From Sulfurimonas aquatica (lineage in GTDB: Bacteria; Campylobacterota; Campylobacteria; Campylobacterales; Sulfurimonadaceae): a stretch of 64,000 nt of DNA. A model generated the notes under the pieces. That model did no database searches and was not told the origin of the DNA. It worked only from the letters and a program-made list of their open reading frames with translations. The stretch spans positions 124,001 through 188,000 of the forward strand of contig NZ_CP046072.1 in NCBI RefSeq assembly GCF_017357825.1. The letters run 5' to 3'. Below are positions 22,295 through 30,664 of the stretch, one piece after another; the first letter of the stretch is position 1, and the number at the start of each line of letters is the position of its first letter. The position numbers and the translations under genes were made by a program.

Positions 22295-22382
22295 TTTTCT
22301 TCCTTTTTTTTGTTAACATTTTACACTATAATGATGTCTAATAACTTAAGGGTGGTTTATGCCCTTTAGATGGAGTGTAATT

Positions 22383-22907
22383 ATGAAACATGCTGGTACC
22401 TATCATACTCTAGCAAACTTTGGAAGGGAGCTGTTAGAAAAAAGAACACTCGCTGAAGGCTTGCCTCTTATTGCTACTTATGCTAAAAATGTTATCAATG
22501 CAGATCGCTGTTCTATCTTTATGTATGATGCAGTAGAGAAGTACTTCTGGACAACTCTAGCTGATGGCGTTGAAAAGATTATAATTTCATCTGATAAGGG
22601 CATAGTAGGGTATACACTTAAAACAGAAAAACCAGTGGTTGCTAATGATGCTTATGCACATCCAAGTTTTCTTCCTGAAGTTGACAAAGAGACGGGATAC
22701 AAAACTGAGAATGTTATTACCGCTCCTATATTTAGCTCAAAAAGAGAGATTATAGGAATCCTTCAACTTTTAAATAAACCAACAGACTTTGATAGTGATG
22801 ATGTGAAGTTTATGGTCTTTTTTTCTCACTATGTTAGTGGATTCTTAGAACTTACAAACATATATCTTCAAGAAGATAGAAGATTACTAAAAGCGAATGA
22901 AAAATGA
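22383..22907 (+). CDS. Stand-alone GAF-domain protein (first of a tandem pair)
   Basis: About 174 residues comprising essentially one GAF domain (NADRCSIFMYD, DKGIVGYTL, NVITAPIFSSKREIIGILQLLNK). No output domain is attached, so it must signal by binding another protein. I prefer ATG 22383, with GGAG 7 bases upstream; ATG 22359 with AAGGGTGG upstream would add eight residues and cannot be excluded. Its stop overlaps the start of a paralogous GAF gene (ATGA). Confidence 0.83.
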   Translation: MKHAGTYHTLANFGRELLEKRTLAEGLPLIATYAKNVINADRCSIFMYDAVEKYFWTTLADGVEKIIISSDKGIVGYTLKTEKPVVANDAYAHPSFLPEVDKETGYKTENVITAPIFSSKREIIGILQLLNKPTDFDSDDVKFMVFFSHYVSGFLELTNIYLQEDRRLLKANEK

Positions 22908-23386
22908 ATAAGTTAAATCAAATAGGTGAATTTGGCAAAGAGTTGATGACATCTACAAATATAGATGAGACACTCGCTATCATAGCAACGGAAGCAAAAA
23001 GATTGGCAAATGCTGATAGATGCTCAATATTTATAGTAGATGAAGAGGATGATGTTCTATGGAGTATTTTAAGTGATGGAATAGGCAGAATAGTGGTAGC
23101 TCTTAATGCTGGTATTGTCGGGGATACTTACACAACACAAGAGGCACAAATAGTAAATAAGCCTTATGAAGAAGAGCGATTTTTACAAAACATAGATAAA
23201 AAGAGTGGCTATATTACAAAAAATATGATTACTGTGCCTATTTTTAACTCTAGGCAAGAAGTAATGGGAATCATCCAGCTTTTAAATAAAGCTGATGGGG
23301 ATTTTACAGAGTTTGACAAAGAAACATTTACGTTTTTTGCAAACTATGTGAGTGGGAGTTTAGAACTACTTTTGATGCAGGAGTAA
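22904..23386 (+). CDS. Stand-alone GAF-domain protein (second of a tandem pair)
   Basis: 160 residues, clearly paralogous to the preceding gene (NADRCSIFIVDEEDD, NAGIVGDTYTTQ, NMITVPIFNSRQEVMGIIQLLNKADG). Like its neighbour it has no output domain. The ATGA overlap implies coupled translation and perhaps a heterodimer. Its 3' end overlaps the convergent lytic transglycosylase gene by 21 bases. Confidence 0.83.
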   Translation: MNKLNQIGEFGKELMTSTNIDETLAIIATEAKRLANADRCSIFIVDEEDDVLWSILSDGIGRIVVALNAGIVGDTYTTQEAQIVNKPYEEERFLQNIDKKSGYITKNMITVPIFNSRQEVMGIIQLLNKADGDFTEFDKETFTFFANYVSGSLELLLMQE

Positions 23387-24340
23387 GTGTGCATCATAAG
23401 CGAGTCTCATCACACCAACCGCATAATTAGATGAGTTGTTATAACGCATAATCTTTTTTACGTACTCTTTCATGTATGCAAGCTCTGGTTTTCCTTTAGT
23501 GAAGCATTGGTAGATTTTTCCGCTTTTACTCGTTTCATACACAAATGAAGCATCTTTGTTTTTAAATTCATACTCATACCACTGACTCTCAACACCTGGA
23601 AGATAAGGGAGTTCATTCCAATCAAGTGGCTTGTTATATCCTGCTTTTTTATTTAAAAAAGTTGCCACGGAGACTATTGCGTCTTCCATCTTTGTTAGAT
23701 CTACAACCTTATCTATGTAAGACTCGGCATAGATAAAACTGTTGGGCATAAACTGCGGGATTCCAACTGCTCCTGCATATGAACTAGGAAGGTTACACTG
23801 CTCAGGAGTTACATCTTTAGCATAGCAGTGTTTGATGATAGAGATCATATTTGTTTTGCCAAGATTGATAAGCCACTTCTCCCTAGTTGAGTTTGGTTTA
23901 GCACGTGTGAGCATAGTGTTGAAAACTATAAACGCATCATGTGTGGGTTTAATCTCTCCTAGTTTTGTCTCTTTGAGTAAAATAGCTGCAATTATCTCTT
24001 TATTTACCCCATACTCTAGCTCAGCATAGTCATAAACATCTTTATACTTCTTGATGTTCTCTACCATTTTAGGTACTGATTTTACTAAAACATTGTTCGC
24101 TTTTTTCTCATTTTCTTGATGAGTTTTTAGTTTATTTGGCTGTAGATATTTCCAGCTTATCTCATCAAACTTTTTTGTTTTAAAGTAAGAAGTTAAAAAC
24201 TGGTTTGCATATTTTATGGAAACACCATCTTTTACTACTGCTTTACATATATCTTCATAATGTGGGGTTCTGAATTTACAGTTATCATACTTTGCAAAAG
24301 CAAGCACGCTTAAACTTATGAGTAGAAGTAACTTAATCAT
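23366..24340 (-). CDS. Lytic murein transglycosylase, MltB/SLT2 family
   Basis: 324 residues with a signal peptide (MIKLLLLISLSVLAFA). The SLT2 domain has the catalytic Glu in ILLKETKLGEI (about residue 121) and the substrate groove motif YAGAVGIPQFMPNSF. It cuts glycan strands to leave 1,6-anhydro-MurNAc ends, which is the substrate class used by the AnmK encoded upstream. It is the last gene of the salvage cluster; its ATG lies inside the end of murU (8-base overlap). The missing lipobox suggests a soluble periplasmic rather than lipoprotein form. Confidence 0.87.
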   Translation of the reverse strand: MIKLLLLISLSVLAFAKYDNCKFRTPHYEDICKAVVKDGVSIKYANQFLTSYFKTKKFDEISWKYLQPNKLKTHQENEKKANNVLVKSVPKMVENIKKYKDVYDYAELEYGVNKEIIAAILLKETKLGEIKPTHDAFIVFNTMLTRAKPNSTREKWLINLGKTNMISIIKHCYAKDVTPEQCNLPSSYAGAVGIPQFMPNSFIYAESYIDKVVDLTKMEDAIVSVATFLNKKAGYNKPLDWNELPYLPGVESQWYEYEFKNKDASFVYETSKSGKIYQCFTKGKPELAYMKEYVKKIMRYNNSSNYAVGVMRLAYDAHLLLHQK

Positions 24341-24986
24341 TTATATCCTTTAATCTTTTTGGCGTACCTATGTCATGCCACATTTTCTCAAACACTTCAC
24401 CACTTATTTGCTCTTTGTCTATAGAGTCTCTAAGAAGTGGTGCCAATGGGCTTTTTTCTATCTTCACATCTTTAAAAAAAAGAGGTGAATAGTACGCTAT
24501 TCCTGAGAATGTGTACATTTTTTTCGACTTGTTAATAACTAAAGCATCTTTAAGTCCAAAATCTCCTTTTTTGTTGTGTTCAGGATTAGAAACTAAAATG
24601 AGATGGGCTAATTTATCTTTTAAATCAAACGAAGCATCAAACTCGTACTCACAAAACACATCTCCATTTACAACCAAAAAAGGCTCATTTGCTAAAAGAT
24701 GAAGCGCGTTTTTAATGCCACCCCCGCTCTCTAGTGCTCCACTCTCTTGCTCATCCGAATAAGTAATGTTAACTCCCCATCTTGAGCCATCACCAAGTGC
24801 TTGGGGTATTTTAAACCCTAGATGGGCTATGTTTATGACTATGTCTTTAAAGCCATTGCGTTTAAGATTTTCTAAATGCCAGACTATAAGTGGTTTGCCT
24901 CTTACTTCAAGTAGGGGTTTTGGAAGAGAGTCGGTTAGTGGTCGCATCCTCTCCCCTCGACCGGCTGCTAGTATCATAGCCCTCAT
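24333..24986 (-). CDS. murU: N-acetylmuramate-1-phosphate uridylyltransferase (MurU-like)
   Basis: A 217-residue nucleotidyltransferase, near the length of Pseudomonas MurU. It opens with MILAAGRGERMRPLTDSLPK, has the sugar-nucleotide site LLEVRGKPLIVWHLENL, the stretch SGALESGGGIKNAL and the metal-binding FLVVNGDVF. It would join MurNAc-1-phosphate and UTP to make UDP-MurNAc. The pairing with an AmgK-like kinase directly upstream (TAATG junction) is what separates it from other sugar-1-phosphate nucleotidyltransferases such as HddC or mannose-type enzymes. Confidence 0.82.
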   Translation of the reverse strand: MRAMILAAGRGERMRPLTDSLPKPLLEVRGKPLIVWHLENLKRNGFKDIVINIAHLGFKIPQALGDGSRWGVNITYSDEQESGALESGGGIKNALHLLANEPFLVVNGDVFCEYEFDASFDLKDKLAHLILVSNPEHNKKGDFGLKDALVINKSKKMYTFSGIAYYSPLFFKDVKIEKSPLAPLLRDSIDKEQISGEVFEKMWHDIGTPKRLKDIND

Positions 24987-25924
24987 TAGGCATGCTCTTT
25001 TAAAAACTCTGAGAGATTTTTTGTCTCTTCGTATCTGCTCGCAGTTTCAACTACATACTTTAGAGTTAGCGGAATGTCTTTTAAGTAGCCATCCTTGCCA
25101 TCACGAAGGTGTAAACGCGAGAAAATTCCGAGTACTTTTATGTGTCGTTGTAGTCCCATAAAATCAAACCACTTTAAAAATTCACCATTACCTGTTTTTA
25201 GCCCTAGTTTATCTCTAAACGCAAGGACTAACTCTTCTATCTCTTCGCGTTTAAACTCTATATAGCAGTCTTTTAAGAGCGATACTAAATCATAGGTGAT
25301 AGCTCCACTCATAGCGTCTTGATAATCTATAACGCCTATCTGTTTGTTAGTCGTTAGCATAATGTTGCGAGAGTGATAATCACGATGTACAAAAACACCT
25401 TGAGGTTGAGAGAGAACGATCTCAGATATGCTATCAAGAGCCTTTTGCATCATCTCTTTTTGCTCTTGAGTAAGCTTGATTGAGAGTTTTTGTTTTAGAT
25501 ACCACTCACTCATTAAGTCCATTTCAAAATGTAAGAATTTTTTATCATAAAGAGGGAGGGAGCTAGCATCCGCTTTTTGCATATTTATTATTTCATCTAT
25601 GGCACTAGTGTAAAGCTCTCTAAAGTTTTTAGAATCTAAAATATTTAAAAGATGAGTGTCTCCAAAGTCTTCTATGATTAAGTAGCCATCTTCAAGATTT
25701 TTCTCATAGATAGTTGGCACTTTTACTCGAGCCGCTTCAAGTCTTGAAGTGACGTCTAAAAAAGGCGCTAAAGACTCTTTTTCAAGTGAAGAGTCCATAA
25801 GCAGATAAGTTTCACTCTCTTGCGTTAGTCTGTAGTATTTTCTAAAACTAGCGTCTGCCGAAGCTATGCTAAGTTTATAATTTTTATAAGGGGTTGTATT
25901 TAGCCACTCTTTTATTTTATCCAT
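24986..25924 (-). CDS. amgK: N-acetylmuramate/N-acetylglucosamine 1-kinase (AmgK-like)
   Basis: About 312 residues of the aminoglycoside-phosphotransferase (APH) fold. Visible motifs are the ATP-loop segment DASFRKYYRLT, the catalytic loop VHRDYHSRNIML and the metal site GVIDYQDAMSG, the last being typical of AmgK. It would phosphorylate MurNAc (and GlcNAc) at C1. I place the start at ATG 25924, where it overlaps the anmK stop by 8 bases and has GGAG 7 bases upstream; a longer start at 25978 would overlap anmK by 62 bases. Function is strengthened by murU directly downstream. Confidence 0.82.
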   Translation of the reverse strand: MDKIKEWLNTTPYKNYKLSIASADASFRKYYRLTQESETYLLMDSSLEKESLAPFLDVTSRLEAARVKVPTIYEKNLEDGYLIIEDFGDTHLLNILDSKNFRELYTSAIDEIINMQKADASSLPLYDKKFLHFEMDLMSEWYLKQKLSIKLTQEQKEMMQKALDSISEIVLSQPQGVFVHRDYHSRNIMLTTNKQIGVIDYQDAMSGAITYDLVSLLKDCYIEFKREEIEELVLAFRDKLGLKTGNGEFLKWFDFMGLQRHIKVLGIFSRLHLRDGKDGYLKDIPLTLKYVVETASRYEETKNLSEFLKEHA

Positions 25925-26999
25925 ATATTGCTCCAAGTTGTGAATCTTTTTTTGACCCTGTAACTGAGCTAAGCTCAACTACTTCATTATTTATGCGTTT
26001 ATATGCAAGCCAAGCAAACGCCATCGCTTCAAGAGCGTCGCTGCTAACGCCAAACTCTTCACTACGATTTATTTCACAAGAGCAAAGCTCACTTAGCCTT
26101 TTGACTAAAAAGCCATTTCTCGTGCCACCACCACAGAGGATAAGCTTTGTGGCGTCTGTTTTATTGAGATCGTTTGCCACTGTTTTAGCGGTGAGCTCAA
26201 GAAGCGTTCTCATGATGTCTCTATCTTTGTAAGCATTAAAAATAGGCAGAAACTTTGCAAACCAGCTCTCATTAAAATACTCACGACCCGTACTTTTTGG
26301 AGGCTCTTTTTTAAAGTACTCATCATTTAACATATCTTCTAAAAGTTCAGAAATAACTTTTCCACCCTGTGCGAACTCACCATTTTTATCATAACTCTTC
26401 TCTTGCGTTTTACTCATCCACATATCGAGCAGAACATTTCCACAACCAGTATCCCAACCTCTAAGAGTACTCCCAAGTAGCGTTATGTTAGCCATGCCGC
26501 CAATATTTAGAACTGCTATATTACCCTCGAGTTTTTCAAACAAAAACTTATGAAACGCGGGAGCAAAAGGAGCGCCTTCTCCGCCATTTGCTATGTCCAT
26601 CCTTCTAAAGTCGGCAACGGTTTTTATACCTGTTTTTGCCACAACTCTGTTGGCATCTCCAAGTTGCATGGAAAAAGGGTGTTTAGAGTGAGGTTCATGC
26701 CATAGTGTTTGACCATGTAGCCCAATGGCGTTTATATCTTTGGTGTTTAACTTTTGAGAGCGCAAAAACTGTGAGAGCGTCTCAGAGTAGAGTTCTCCAA
26801 GTTTAGCGTCAAGAGTGCCAAGCTCTTTGAGTGTTACAACACCGTTGATGATGGAGAGCACCTCTTCTTTAAGAGTTTTTGGAAATGGGTACTCTTCAAA
26901 CGCGAGGAGTTTACAACTGCTTTTGTCTATATCACACAGAGCGATATCAACTCCGTCAAGACTAGTCCCCGACATAACGCCAATATATAAGTTACTCAT
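25917..26999 (-). CDS. anmK: Anhydro-N-acetylmuramic acid kinase
   Basis: 360 residues, the usual AnmK length. It has GVMSGTSLDGVD at the N-terminus, TVADFRRMDIANGGEGAP, VLNIGGMANIT and GWDTGCGNVLLD, all hallmark motifs of the family. AnmK opens the 1,6-anhydro ring while phosphorylating, giving MurNAc-6-phosphate. It lies between an SSS-family symporter (8-base overlap) and amgK. A MurNAc-6-phosphate phosphatase (MupP) or etherase (MurQ) would be needed next; neither is in this window. Confidence 0.95.
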   Translation of the reverse strand: MSNLYIGVMSGTSLDGVDIALCDIDKSSCKLLAFEEYPFPKTLKEEVLSIINGVVTLKELGTLDAKLGELYSETLSQFLRSQKLNTKDINAIGLHGQTLWHEPHSKHPFSMQLGDANRVVAKTGIKTVADFRRMDIANGGEGAPFAPAFHKFLFEKLEGNIAVLNIGGMANITLLGSTLRGWDTGCGNVLLDMWMSKTQEKSYDKNGEFAQGGKVISELLEDMLNDEYFKKEPPKSTGREYFNESWFAKFLPIFNAYKDRDIMRTLLELTAKTVANDLNKTDATKLILCGGGTRNGFLVKRLSELCSCEINRSEEFGVSSDALEAMAFAWLAYKRINNEVVELSSVTGSKKDSQLGAIYG

Positions 27000-28464
27000 T
27001 GTTTCCCCCTAACTGCATTATAAAAAACGAAACTAAAGTCCCAATGACTATCTGCCAAGAAAAGCCCATAGTGATGCCAAAAGCATAAGGCTGTAGAGCT
27101 AAAACAGTTAAAAAGCCTCCAACAAGCGCAAATGGAACTGTTTTTTTATTTCCGCGTTTGGTAAAGATGGCTGAGAAGAAAACTCCAAGAAGTCCAGTAT
27201 ACGCAAACGCCATAACGCCAAGCGCGAAACCTATGAGAGAGAGTTCTGAGTACCTCTGCCAGAAGTAGCTCACTATCGCCATAAGTGAAAGTATAAACGC
27301 GAAGAAAAGAACGGCGTTTCTTGAGGCTTTTACAAAATGCTCTTCATCTATTTTGTTGTCGCGTTGGAGTTTCCATGGTTTATACAAATCTTCTATAGCC
27401 ACGGATGCCATAGCCCCCAGCACTGAGTTGGTACTTGAGAGTGCCGCTGCAATAGCTCCCACAGTTACAAAACCACGAACACCTTCTGGCATCTCGTTTA
27501 AAATGTAGTACATAAAGATAGTGATTTTCTCACCCTCAAAGTTTTGACTCACGTCTGCATTTTGATAGTAGAGAAAAAGAAGCGCACCAATAGTTAAAAA
27601 AAGTAGCACTATGGGGATAGTTATGAGAATGGAGAGGATGAGTGACTTAGAAGCTTCATCTTTGTTCTTGCAAGAGAGAACTCTTTGCGTCATGTCTTGG
27701 TCGAGTCCAAACGCCGCTATGTTTAGAAGTAGCCATCCTGTAAGAAGACCGATAAGTGAGAACTTTCCATCGAGCGAAGTATCTATGAGAGTGAGTTTGT
27801 CACTATCTTTAAGTGCTTGTAAAATATCAATGCCATCAAGGGAACTATATAAAAAGTAGACAACTACGACTCCCGCGCTCACATAAGTTATAGCTTGGAT
27901 GACGTCGCTAAGTATGACGGAGCGAACTCCTCCAAAGTAGGTATATAAAAGCGCTCCAAAAACTAAAATGAGGATAGAGATAAACATATGAAGAAAACTA
28001 ATATCTAAAAAAAGTATCATGGAAATGGCAAGCCCGCCTATGTAGAGTCTAGCACCACTGGCCATAATCCGACCAACCAAAAACATAATGCCAGCTTGTT
28101 TTTTAGCGCTTTCTCCGTAGCGTTTATCTAAGAGTTCATAAACCGTTATGGCATTGATCTCATAAAACTTTGGAACGAAATACTTTGCGATGAAGATTAC
28201 GGCGAGAAGGGCTGAGAAGTAAAAACCGATGAAAGTAAAGTTGTTTGAGTAGGAAAACTCAGGGGCTCCTAAAAAAGTTGCCGCTGATTGAGATGTGGCA
28301 ACTATGGAGAGTGCCACGGCAAACATTGGCATAGAGTTTGAACTTACGAAATAGTCTCTTGAAGAGCTGATTTTAACTCGTGAGAAGAGATAAGAACTCA
28401 GAGCTAAAACTAAAAAGTAGGCTAAAAATATAGCCCAATCTAAAGAGGTAAAACTGCTATTCAT
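26992..28464 (-). CDS. Sodium:solute symporter (SSS family), probable amino-sugar importer
   Basis: A 490-residue polytopic membrane protein with about 13 predicted helices and the SSS pattern near the N-terminus (VATSQSAATFLGAPEFSYS) and in the middle (GALLYTYFGGVRSVILSDVIQ). The family moves sugars, amino acids or other solutes with Na+. Here it is wedged between the secreted NagZ-amidase gene and anmK with 8-base overlaps on both sides, so a substrate made by the former and used by the latter, anhydro-MurNAc or a related sugar, is the natural guess. The family is secure; the substrate is inference. Confidence 0.85.
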   Translation of the reverse strand: MNSSFTSLDWAIFLAYFLVLALSSYLFSRVKISSSRDYFVSSNSMPMFAVALSIVATSQSAATFLGAPEFSYSNNFTFIGFYFSALLAVIFIAKYFVPKFYEINAITVYELLDKRYGESAKKQAGIMFLVGRIMASGARLYIGGLAISMILFLDISFLHMFISILILVFGALLYTYFGGVRSVILSDVIQAITYVSAGVVVVYFLYSSLDGIDILQALKDSDKLTLIDTSLDGKFSLIGLLTGWLLLNIAAFGLDQDMTQRVLSCKNKDEASKSLILSILITIPIVLLFLTIGALLFLYYQNADVSQNFEGEKITIFMYYILNEMPEGVRGFVTVGAIAAALSSTNSVLGAMASVAIEDLYKPWKLQRDNKIDEEHFVKASRNAVLFFAFILSLMAIVSYFWQRYSELSLIGFALGVMAFAYTGLLGVFFSAIFTKRGNKKTVPFALVGGFLTVLALQPYAFGITMGFSWQIVIGTLVSFFIMQLGGNNE

Positions 28465-30115
28465 TTATACCGGCTCGAACTTCACTCATAAACCTCTCTC
28501 CAGGATCAACTTTCTCGGTTCTGTATCCAGCATCTTTTTCAAGCCAAAGAGGCGTATCTTCTAGATTTCTGTACTCATGATGCCCTATGAGTTTTCGTAT
28601 GCTTGGATATTTTTGAGTGAGGTATTTCACAAGCTTGATATTTGCGTTTACTTGTGCTGGTGTGAGGTCGTCTTTCTCATTACCTTCTCCTCCAACATTT
28701 TCAACTCCTATGCTCGAGTAGTTAAGTCCGATGACATGACGAGCCATCCAGTTCTCAGGCATAAGTTGGTAGATACTCCCATCACGGTCTACTAAAAAGT
28801 GTGCCGAGACATTAAGTGCAGATGCCTTTGCTATGTCTGCTCTATCACTGTAGAGTAGTTCAGCGTTTAGTCTCTTAAATGACGCCTCAAAGTCCATCAC
28901 GGCAGTCCAGTGAAGAACGATAGTGATGGGCTTAATCGTAATATCATTAATAATAAGCCCATAGTGCTCTTTAACGTACTCTTTTGTAAGAGTCTCGCGT
29001 TTATCGCTAAAGAGTATTGGTTTTTGTATGATGGAGTATTTCGTGTGAAGGTTTTCTATCCTTCTGTTTGCTTCTTTGATTCTCTCTAAAGAGATAACAC
29101 CACTTTTTACTTGCTGATATACAGTTTCAATAATCTCTTTAACACTAACCCCTGCTAGTTGGTTTCCAAAAAGGAGTATATCAACGCCTGCGTTTATAGC
29201 TAAAGTTATAGCCTCTTTTGTAGAGTAATGTTTTGAGATAGCCTTCATTTGCATATCATCACTGATGACTACGCCACGGTATCCCATTTTGTCCCTGAGT
29301 ATATCTGTGTTTACTCTGTATGAGAGAGTGGCAGGATACTTTTTGTCTAAAAACTCGTTAAAAACATGCGCTGTCATTATCATATCTACTTCATTTTCAT
29401 CTATAAGCTTTTGATAAGGTTCTAGCTCTTTTGGGCTCCAAGTTCTGGAGATATTTACAAAGCCTTGATGAGAATCTCCAACAGAGGAACCGTGACCGGG
29501 AAAGTGCTTAAGAACTGAGATGACATTATGACTTCTTTGCTCTTGCAGCATTATCTTTGCAAACTTTACAACTTTTGAACTCTCTTTTGAGTAAGAGCGT
29601 TGGAGTCCAACTATTACTTTGTTTTTAGGATTTATCGCTAAGTCTACCACTGGTGCAAAGTTAGTATTTATCCCATTTTGTTTGAGCATATTTGATTGAA
29701 CTCTATATGTATGTCTTGCATCCTCTTCACTCATCCGTGAAACACTCATAGCCGATGGAGTCTCTTTAAAACCATACTTAGGCTTGAGTCGTGCCACTTT
29801 TCCACCCTCTTGATCAACACTGATGAGAAGTGGTTTATTGCTTAGCATATTAAGCTTTTTAGTGAGACGATGGAGCTGTTCATGACTTTGAATGTTTTTA
29901 GTTCTATTTCTATCATTAAAAAAGCTATCAAAAAGGATAACCCCACCTAAATCGTACTTCTGTATATCTTTTACTATTTGGGAGTTTTCATCTATCTCTG
30001 AGTCGTTAAAGCCAACTACAAGCATCCGGCCTATCATCTTTTTAAGAGTAGTTTCATCTATCTCGTTAGCGTTTAGAGCTGTTAGTAAAAGTAAAAAAAG
30101 TAAAAATATTCTCAA
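28457..30115 (-). CDS. Secreted fusion of beta-N-acetylglucosaminidase (NagZ, GH3) and N-acetylmuramyl-L-alanine amidase
   Basis: 552 residues starting at TTG 30115 with GAGGAA upstream. A signal peptide (1-15, ending TALNA) precedes a GH3 NagZ domain (about 20-360) with KHFPGHG (203-209), the Asp-His dyad D214/H216 and nucleophile Asp286 in ISDDMQM. A zinc amidase_2 domain (AmpD/AmiD type, about 393-545) follows with H402 (LHWTA), Glu472, H512 (IGHHEY) and Asp537 (VDPG) as likely ligands and catalyst. The protein should remove both GlcNAc and the peptide from muropeptides in the periplasm. E. coli NagZ and AmpD are separate and cytoplasmic. The stop overlaps the symporter start by 8 bases. 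Confidence 0.9.
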   Translation of the reverse strand: MRIFLLFLLLLTALNANEIDETTLKKMIGRMLVVGFNDSEIDENSQIVKDIQKYDLGGVILFDSFFNDRNRTKNIQSHEQLHRLTKKLNMLSNKPLLISVDQEGGKVARLKPKYGFKETPSAMSVSRMSEEDARHTYRVQSNMLKQNGINTNFAPVVDLAINPKNKVIVGLQRSYSKESSKVVKFAKIMLQEQRSHNVISVLKHFPGHGSSVGDSHQGFVNISRTWSPKELEPYQKLIDENEVDMIMTAHVFNEFLDKKYPATLSYRVNTDILRDKMGYRGVVISDDMQMKAISKHYSTKEAITLAINAGVDILLFGNQLAGVSVKEIIETVYQQVKSGVISLERIKEANRRIENLHTKYSIIQKPILFSDKRETLTKEYVKEHYGLIINDITIKPITIVLHWTAVMDFEASFKRLNAELLYSDRADIAKASALNVSAHFLVDRDGSIYQLMPENWMARHVIGLNYSSIGVENVGGEGNEKDDLTPAQVNANIKLVKYLTQKYPSIRKLIGHHEYRNLEDTPLWLEKDAGYRTEKVDPGERFMSEVRAGINE

Positions 30116-30118
30116 AAA

Positions 30119-30664
30119 TTATTCCTCAGTAAAAAGTATTCCGTTTATAACATCAATTTGATTAAAAATAAGTGCTTTTGTATCTTCTTTTGTGATACTT
30201 TCTGGTTCAAAATGGTCACTAACTATTTTTATAATATGAAAATTTTTAATGGCAGGAGAGTGTATAACGCTATCATAAAAGCCAAAGGACTCCATGTCGA
30301 CTATATCATACTTCGTATCACTTGCTTCTTCATCCAAGCAGACTATAGATCTCTTCTTATTATTAAATATATAAGAGGAGTTATCATAGGTAACTCTTCC
30401 TATTTGTATAAGGGTGCCTATTTCATATTTATCTGTCGCTCCGCAGATGCCAACATTTATATATATGTCATCATCAGTAATATCATACTGATTTATCAAA
30501 GACTGAGTTGCAAGTCGGGAGTTTGTTACTCCTATGCCACTTACTATAAGTCGGATTTGTTCATTTTCAAAAAGGGAAAAAGAGTTGAGTTTAGACTTTT
30601 TTAGCTTATATCTATCTACATATGCTTGAGCCTCAGATTTTAGCGCTATTACAAAATATAACAA
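30119..30664 (-). CDS. Nucleoside phosphorylase superfamily protein (short MTA/SAH nucleosidase-like)
   Basis: 181 residues from a TTG start at 30664 with AAAGGG upstream. The N-terminal VIALKSEAQAY, the segment VSGIGVTNSRLATQSL and the C-terminal IVDMESFGFYDSV (the MES-GF ribose site) followed by KIVSDH belong to the Pfs/PNP fold. At 181 residues it is shorter than Pfs (about 230). It leads the salvage cluster, with only 3 bases to the NagZ-amidase gene. Its substrate is unknown; adenine-nucleoside hydrolysis is the default guess. Confidence 0.7.
   Translation of the reverse strand: MLYFVIALKSEAQAYVDRYKLKKSKLNSFSLFENEQIRLIVSGIGVTNSRLATQSLINQYDITDDDIYINVGICGATDKYEIGTLIQIGRVTYDNSSYIFNNKKRSIVCLDEEASDTKYDIVDMESFGFYDSVIHSPAIKNFHIIKIVSDHFEPESITKEDTKALIFNQIDVINGILFTEE

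Follow-up and report, generated by a model that had tools for sequence, protein, structure and literature searches.

The 64-kb window analysed here, a single stretch of Sulfurimonas aquatica DNA, contains seven minus-strand open reading frames (ORFs) that extend from position 30664 to position 23366 and code for a predicted pathway of peptidoglycan salvage. The sugars concerned are N-acetylglucosamine (GlcNAc) and N-acetylmuramic acid (MurNAc). In the order of transcription the ORF listing gives:

30119..30664, minus strand: small protein of 181 amino acids with an MTAN fold (nucleosidase-like), assigned from its fold model; N-terminus not hydrophobic
28457..30115, minus strand: fusion of NagZ (GH3) and an amidase (Amidase_2), 552 amino acids, predicted to be secreted (Pfam; hydrophobic N-terminus)
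26992..28464, minus strand: SSS (SSF) sodium:solute symporter, 490 amino acids, candidate anhydro-MurNAc importer (PF00474)
25917..26999, minus strand: anmK, anhydro-MurNAc kinase (PF03702, E 3e-128, 428 bits against a cut-off of 24; NCBIfam 442.9 against 367)
24986..25924, minus strand: amgK-like MurNAc/GlcNAc kinase (APH family; best NCBIfam match NF045759, 262.7 bits against a cut-off of 550)
24333..24986, minus strand: murU, MurNAc-1-phosphate uridylyltransferase (NF045761, 298.3 bits against a cut-off of 250)
23366..24340, minus strand: MltB-like lytic transglycosylase (SLT_2), predicted to be secreted (PF13406, E 8e-35; NCBIfam MltB 78.3 against 281.4; hydrophobic N-terminus)

The first two ORFs are separated by a gap of 3 bases and the following junctions are overlaps of 8, 8, 8, 1 and 8 bases. 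This confirms the arrangement described in the original prediction, made from the DNA letters alone, of a seven-gene minus-strand set with gaps or overlaps of a few bases. The 8-base overlap of amgK with anmK takes the in-frame ATG at position 25924 as the amgK start. The tight spacing, together with a gene order kept in relatives (see below), makes it likely that the seven genes form one operon. The operon scan found 23 promoter-like and 6 terminator-like sites, no excess over the 19.3 and 4.6 found in shuffled sequences. The designations AmgK and MltB are best-match names, because both proteins score under their NCBIfam cut-offs; the AmgK-like protein was scanned against NCBIfam minus its first residue.

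The enzymes that would strip muropeptides carry features of exported proteins. A hydrophobic N-terminal stretch is present in each of the 23 NagZ proteins whose start is intact (the window and loci L008-L032; best 15-residue mean 1.45-2.69; three rows truncated at contig ends were excluded from the count), in 15 MltB-like proteins (1.24-2.47) and, by eye, in seven standalone amidases. The top structure matches of the NagZ part are Bacillus subtilis NagZ/YbbD (3bmx, E 3e-44) and, nearly as good, 3tev and 6k5j. Entries 3gs6 (5e-26) and 5g1m (1e-22), which we take to be cytoplasmic NagZ proteins of Gram-negative bacteria, score lower than the B. subtilis match. The motifs KHFPGHG, D214-S215-H216 and S285-D286-D287 of the NagZ part and residues H402, H512 and D537 of the amidase part are invariant in 12 orthologues and presumably correspond to the expected catalytic residues. 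NagZ and amidase are thus both predicted to be exported with their catalytic motifs kept. A cytoplasmic NagZ step is unlikely because the sole GH3 protein of each genome with AnmK is of the exported type (the search covered GH3; other glycosidase families lay outside it). The location of stripping proposed in the original prediction is well sustained by export signals, motifs and this single GH3 protein, the enzyme activities themselves being presumed.

To assess conservation of the gene order, the fusion protein was used as query against named genomes; the best 80 of 293 loci comprise 25 of Campylobacterota type (L008-L032) and 55 from other groups (L033-L087). The SSS gene follows nagZ in 24 of the 25 Campylobacterota loci, the exception being the Arcobacter locus L030, and anmK lies downstream of the SSS gene in 21. 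The NagZ-amidase fusion is present in 19 loci, and the remaining six have the two unfused. Among the four loci without a downstream anmK, L019 and L031 stop at contig ends, the genome of L032 carries anmK at another place and L030 is the fourth; genome searches for AnmK were negative for both L030 and L031. Extra genes interrupt the salvage cluster in L011, L012, L021, L022, L023, L027 and L029, leaving the pathway order unaltered. In the 55 remaining loci, no SSS or anmK ORF like the window's proteins was found near the match to the fusion. The gene-neighbourhood check that had been proposed for this cluster hence found its order recurring in Campylobacterota relatives: the layout is real and conserved. 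A dispersed version is present in G139, a genome from another family (L201, C9:286000-303000), where an amidase-SSS pair lies ~3.5 kb from anmK-amgK-murU and nagZ is 77 kb off; this gene set may have been transferred or scattered.

Some particularities of individual loci were recorded. By eye, the genes inserted in L011, L012, L021, L022, L027 and L029 resemble signalling and transport genes. Between the SSS gene and anmK, three relatives have similar short ORFs of ~118-131 amino acids (L210:10155-10508, L211:9399-9752 and L023:9902-10294). The SSS gene of L012 (L012:11607-13078) is split into two overlapping ORFs in a metagenome-derived genome, by a frame break or an assembly error. In a Legionellaceae locus (L052:9914-15708) amgK-murU is located ~3 kb from nagZ.

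The distribution of the pathway was analysed in a class sample of 160 genomes and in a subset of 20 composed of all seven genomes with AnmK and 13 AnmK-negative ones. AnmK occurs in 7 of the 160 genomes, namely six of the eight Sulfurimonas genomes (the window's genome included) and G139, which rules out that the cluster is a general Campylobacterota trait. MurU above cut-off is found in exactly the same seven genomes (one-sided Fisher 2e-12, kinship ignored). Each AnmK genome has exactly one GH3 protein, a family present in 4 of the 13 AnmK-negative genomes. The operon-type SSS, recognized by a low SSF score and its gene place, is found in 7/7 AnmK genomes versus 0/13 AnmK-negative ones. Amidase_2 is single-copy in all seven and was found in none of three AnmK-negative genomes searched; two additional AnmK-negative genomes, G145 and G060, do carry the amidase. 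The salvage set is patchy among genomes, the whole block being present or absent. The AmpG family (TIGR00901) had no match in the 20 genomes, in a search with a positive Escherichia coli control that left ATP-binding cassette (ABC) importers outside, and MurQ had no match above cut-off in any of the 20. The weak matches to the MurQ model present in all of them have lengths that point to GlmS, GmhA and other SIS proteins. AmpG-type recycling and MurQ catabolism were rejected on these negative results.

The SSS protein has as its best PDB match the sialic acid symporter 5nv9 (E 5e-36); carriers of sugars and vitamins rank below it. Sialic acid and anhydro-MurNAc are both acidic N-acetyl sugars. 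The SSS gene is found beside nagZ, beside the fusion gene or, in G139, overlapping the secreted amidase gene, and its type tracks AnmK. This gene context is a stronger pointer to the role of the carrier than its residues (see below), and we infer anhydro-MurNAc to be the imported substrate.

Taken together, we consider it probable that the operon encodes a periplasmic-stripping form of peptidoglycan recycling in which anhydro-MurNAc is imported by the SSS carrier and enters the MurU route. Lytic transglycosylases such as the MltB-like enzyme, judging by its family, would free GlcNAc-anhydroMurNAc-peptides, from which the secreted NagZ-amidase would cut off GlcNAc and peptide in the periplasm. 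Anhydro-MurNAc, perhaps with GlcNAc, would then be taken up with sodium by the SSS symporter. AnmK would convert it to MurNAc-6-phosphate, a candidate phosphatase encoded outside the operon would remove the phosphate, AmgK would form MurNAc-1-phosphate and MurU would yield UDP-MurNAc, as in the route known from Pseudomonas. The freed peptide may be handled by a separate set formed by a DUF819 permease and an L-Ala-D/L-Glu epimerase-like enzyme. Support for this reading is good apart from the substrate of the carrier and the phosphatase; the DUF819 link broadens it.

Several observations weigh against it. AnmK delivers MurNAc-6-phosphate, which MupP must dephosphorylate before the AmgK step (PMC5371407). 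A MupP gene is absent from the seven-gene operon (ORFs 30664-23366), a step overlooked by the original prediction. The best HAD candidate, located at ~C1:1581198-1581824 of the window's genome, reaches 89 bits with the MupP model (cut-off 359) versus 125 bits on the phosphoglycolate phosphatase model (cut-off 225), adjoins hemH, and has a counterpart (56% identity) in the AnmK-negative genome G010. It is present in 6/6 Sulfurimonas genomes with AnmK and is not among the strong HAD_2 matches of two AnmK-negative ones; the closest G139 protein is only 37% identical (the comparison covered 24 of the HAD loci). The name of the best-scoring model does not exclude the candidate as MupP, because the Caulobacter MupP orthologue is itself annotated as phosphoglycolate phosphatase (PMC13046382). 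The HAD protein beside hemH is a candidate only for the MurNAc-6-phosphate phosphatase.

The residues of the carrier are a second difficulty. T57, Q59, S60, T63, R132 and R139 are invariant in 18 SSS orthologues. At the position aligned to SiaT residue 135, which we take to be the arginine of the sialic acid site, the window's protein has an alanine, its invariant arginines being at 132 and 139. The residue comparison is only suggestive because that SiaT arginine aligns to no arginine. Substrate residues named for SiaT are Gln82, Phe78, Phe243 and an arginine with the number 136. Third, locus L031 holds a nagZ-SSS pair in one of the genomes where AnmK was not found. The statistics are also less strong than they appear: within the genus alone the AnmK-MurU co-occurrence has a Fisher value of 0.036, and the co-occurrences with AnmK are few events, not seven independent ones, because six of the seven AnmK genomes belong to one genus. 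Finally, among the genomes with unfused NagZ examined for the amidase (G126, G139, G160, G161, G162), four of five (G126, G160, G161, G162) have an amidase gene that overlaps DUF819 and lies apart from the SSS gene; in G139 the overlap is with the SSS gene instead.

The uptake step might alternatively be explained by an SSS carrier that imports the GlcNAc released by NagZ, anhydro-MurNAc or anhydro-muropeptide entering elsewhere, for example by an ABC peptide importer. NagZ would free GlcNAc in the same compartment, SSS carriers for neutral sugars exist (SGLT structures), and L031 and L032 have a nagZ-SSS pair without adjoining anmK, in L031 with no AnmK found in the genome at all. We nevertheless regard this explanation as unlikely: the SSS type tracks AnmK and not NagZ, since GH3 is present in four of the 13 AnmK-negative genomes and this SSS in none, the G139 SSS gene overlaps the amidase gene with nagZ distant, and the genome of L032 does have AnmK elsewhere. 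It is less probable still that the cluster feeds on foreign peptidoglycan and does not recycle the cell's own wall. The predicted export of the stripping enzymes and a patchy gene set that comes and goes as a block would suit such a use, but the route ends at the precursor UDP-MurNAc, the catabolic MurQ was not found, and a lytic transglycosylase is encoded in the same operon. Ordinary AmpG-type recycling, with an overlooked importer and cytoplasmic stripping, is hardly credible: AnmK, AmgK and MurU are indeed the standard Pseudomonas set, but the AmpG search was negative with its control positive and the sole GH3 of the AnmK genomes is predicted to be exported. Import of anhydro-MurNAc by a symporter in place of AmpG, as first proposed, is partly supported: AmpG was not found in the 20 genomes and the SSS type follows AnmK, with the substrate a presumption.

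The amidase-DUF819 linkage suggests, as a genomic association, a separate peptide arm of the recycling by periplasmic stripping. DUF819 is found in 7/7 AnmK genomes versus 4/153 others (Fisher 7e-10, kinship ignored); G116, one of these four, has weak fragments only. In G074 there is a DUF819 match, yet no ORF there is similar to the DUF819 query. An epimerase-like gene is the next overlapping gene after DUF819 in G160 and G161, and none is nearby in G126 and G162. The amidase-DUF819-epimerase trio also occurs in G145 and, in a looser version, in G060, both without AnmK. Pfam was applied to the three G160 proteins and to the permease of G126; other members were assigned by similarity. Within the window's genome the DUF819 gene (C1:471384-472514) overlaps an epimerase-like gene (472514-473548; L226:7385-9549) far from the window, and overall an epimerase-like gene lies at most four ORFs from DUF819 in 7 of 11 regions. 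The epimerase-like protein of the window's genome scores 191 bits on NF041118 (L-Ala-D/L-Glu epimerase; cut-off 500) and 175 on the N-acetyl-D-Glu racemase model. DUF819 is a member of the CPA/AT transporter group (PMC8396727). Literature searches, here and below, covered open-licence papers, in which no described function was found for DUF819.

Amidase_2 is single-copy in all 10 genomes in which the domain search found it, being fused in five, beside DUF819 in four and beside SSS in one. In the amidase tree the DUF819-linked proteins of G126 and G160-G162 group together (support 100), whereas that of G139 is placed with the fused amidases (81). Nor do the fused NagZ proteins make up a single supported clade: 12 of 14 group at 59, the window's protein joins them by rooting only and that of L010 is placed with the unfused ones. 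Support in the trees is weak overall, and they give no direction of change. The amidase may have moved from a DUF819 operon into the NagZ fusion, and its occurrence fits a single amidase common to the sugar and the peptide arm. We tentatively propose two streams outside the cytoplasm, one carrying anhydro-MurNAc through SSS to the MurU route and the other carrying murein peptide through DUF819 to the L-Ala-D/L-Glu epimerase, with the secreted amidase, encoded with either arm, as their branch point. If true, DUF819 would gain a function in murein peptide uptake.

In Pseudomonas, AmpG imports muropeptides and stripping takes place in the cytoplasm. AnmK, an AmgK-like kinase and MurU are shared with its AnmK-MupP-AmgK-MurU pathway, MurQ being not found here. 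Unlike in Pseudomonas, the stripping enzymes are predicted to be exported, AmpG was not found, the phosphatase is a candidate only and the genes form one cluster. A closer likeness in the location of stripping is found in B. subtilis, where NagZ and AmiE act outside the cytoplasm and MurP is encoded in the same cluster (PMC5061867). Glucosaminidase and amidase outside the cytoplasm (predicted here) and a sugar importer in the cluster are common traits, and the NagZ part has its best structure match in B. subtilis; B. subtilis has separate NagZ and AmiE, a phosphotransferase-system importer and MurQ, whereas in the Sulfurimonas cluster the two enzymes are fused, the candidate importer is of the SSS type, and an anhydro-sugar kinase is present along with the MurU route. 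For Rhodothermus marinus the available text reports RmNag3, a NagZ predicted to be periplasmic, with AnmK present, no AmpG and no MurP/NagE orthologue (PMC6987092). RmNag3 resembles the fusion in its signal peptide and second domain, and the two systems share AnmK and the lack of a detected AmpG. The second domain of RmNag3 is of beta-lactamase type and that text names no importer and mentions neither AmgK nor MurU, while here there are Amidase_2 and an SSS candidate. Tf_MurT of Tannerella forsythia is a MurNAc carrier of the sodium symporter superfamily encoded in a salvage operon (PMC5790795); it is likened to the SSS carrier by description and works with MurK and MurQ on MurNAc, whereas here the anhydro sugar and the MurU route would be used. 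Caulobacter uses the MurU route and has ampG in its gene table (PMC13046382), and in Agrobacterium an ABC importer replaces AmpG (PMC9790009).

No description of the present layout was found among the open-licence papers listed, including searches on Sulfurimonas and peptidoglycan recycling, and no paper on AnmK/AmgK/MurU recycling was found there that also covers Campylobacterota. Within that scope, the novelty claimed at the outset holds for the combined layout; extracytoplasmic stripping as such is known from B. subtilis and predicted for R. marinus. If our interpretation is true, the operon would provide the importer needed by Gram-negative bacteria that lack AmpG and strip their muropeptides periplasmically, and it offers a defined gene set to study wall recycling without that permease.

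The first gene of the operon had been listed as nucleosidase-like. Its protein has no Pfam match at 1e-3; 5 of 14 orthologues match PNP_UDP_1 at E up to 1 (best 9e-7). The AlphaFold model (pLDDT 94.3, pTM 0.90) has MTAN as its best PDB match (VIA Z 19.6, root-mean-square deviation 2.5 over 175 residues), and the modelled protein has an MTAN fold. E11, E125 and D150 are invariant in the 14 orthologues and presumably, by eye, equivalent to the catalytic Glu/Glu/Asp of E. coli MTAN. Two other proteins of the PNP_UDP_1 superfamily are encoded in the window's genome. In 16 of the 25 Campylobacterota loci the MTAN-fold gene precedes nagZ on its upstream side; it is absent beside nagZ in L010, L028 and G126, where the flanking DNA was covered. 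It is therefore an optional member of the operon, not needed in the pathway.

Two similar tandem genes, GAF-like by eye, are found at window positions 22359-23386 and face the operon in convergent orientation. The second of them shares 21 bases with the end of mltB, and a similar GAF-like pair also lies downstream of the cluster in several relatives.

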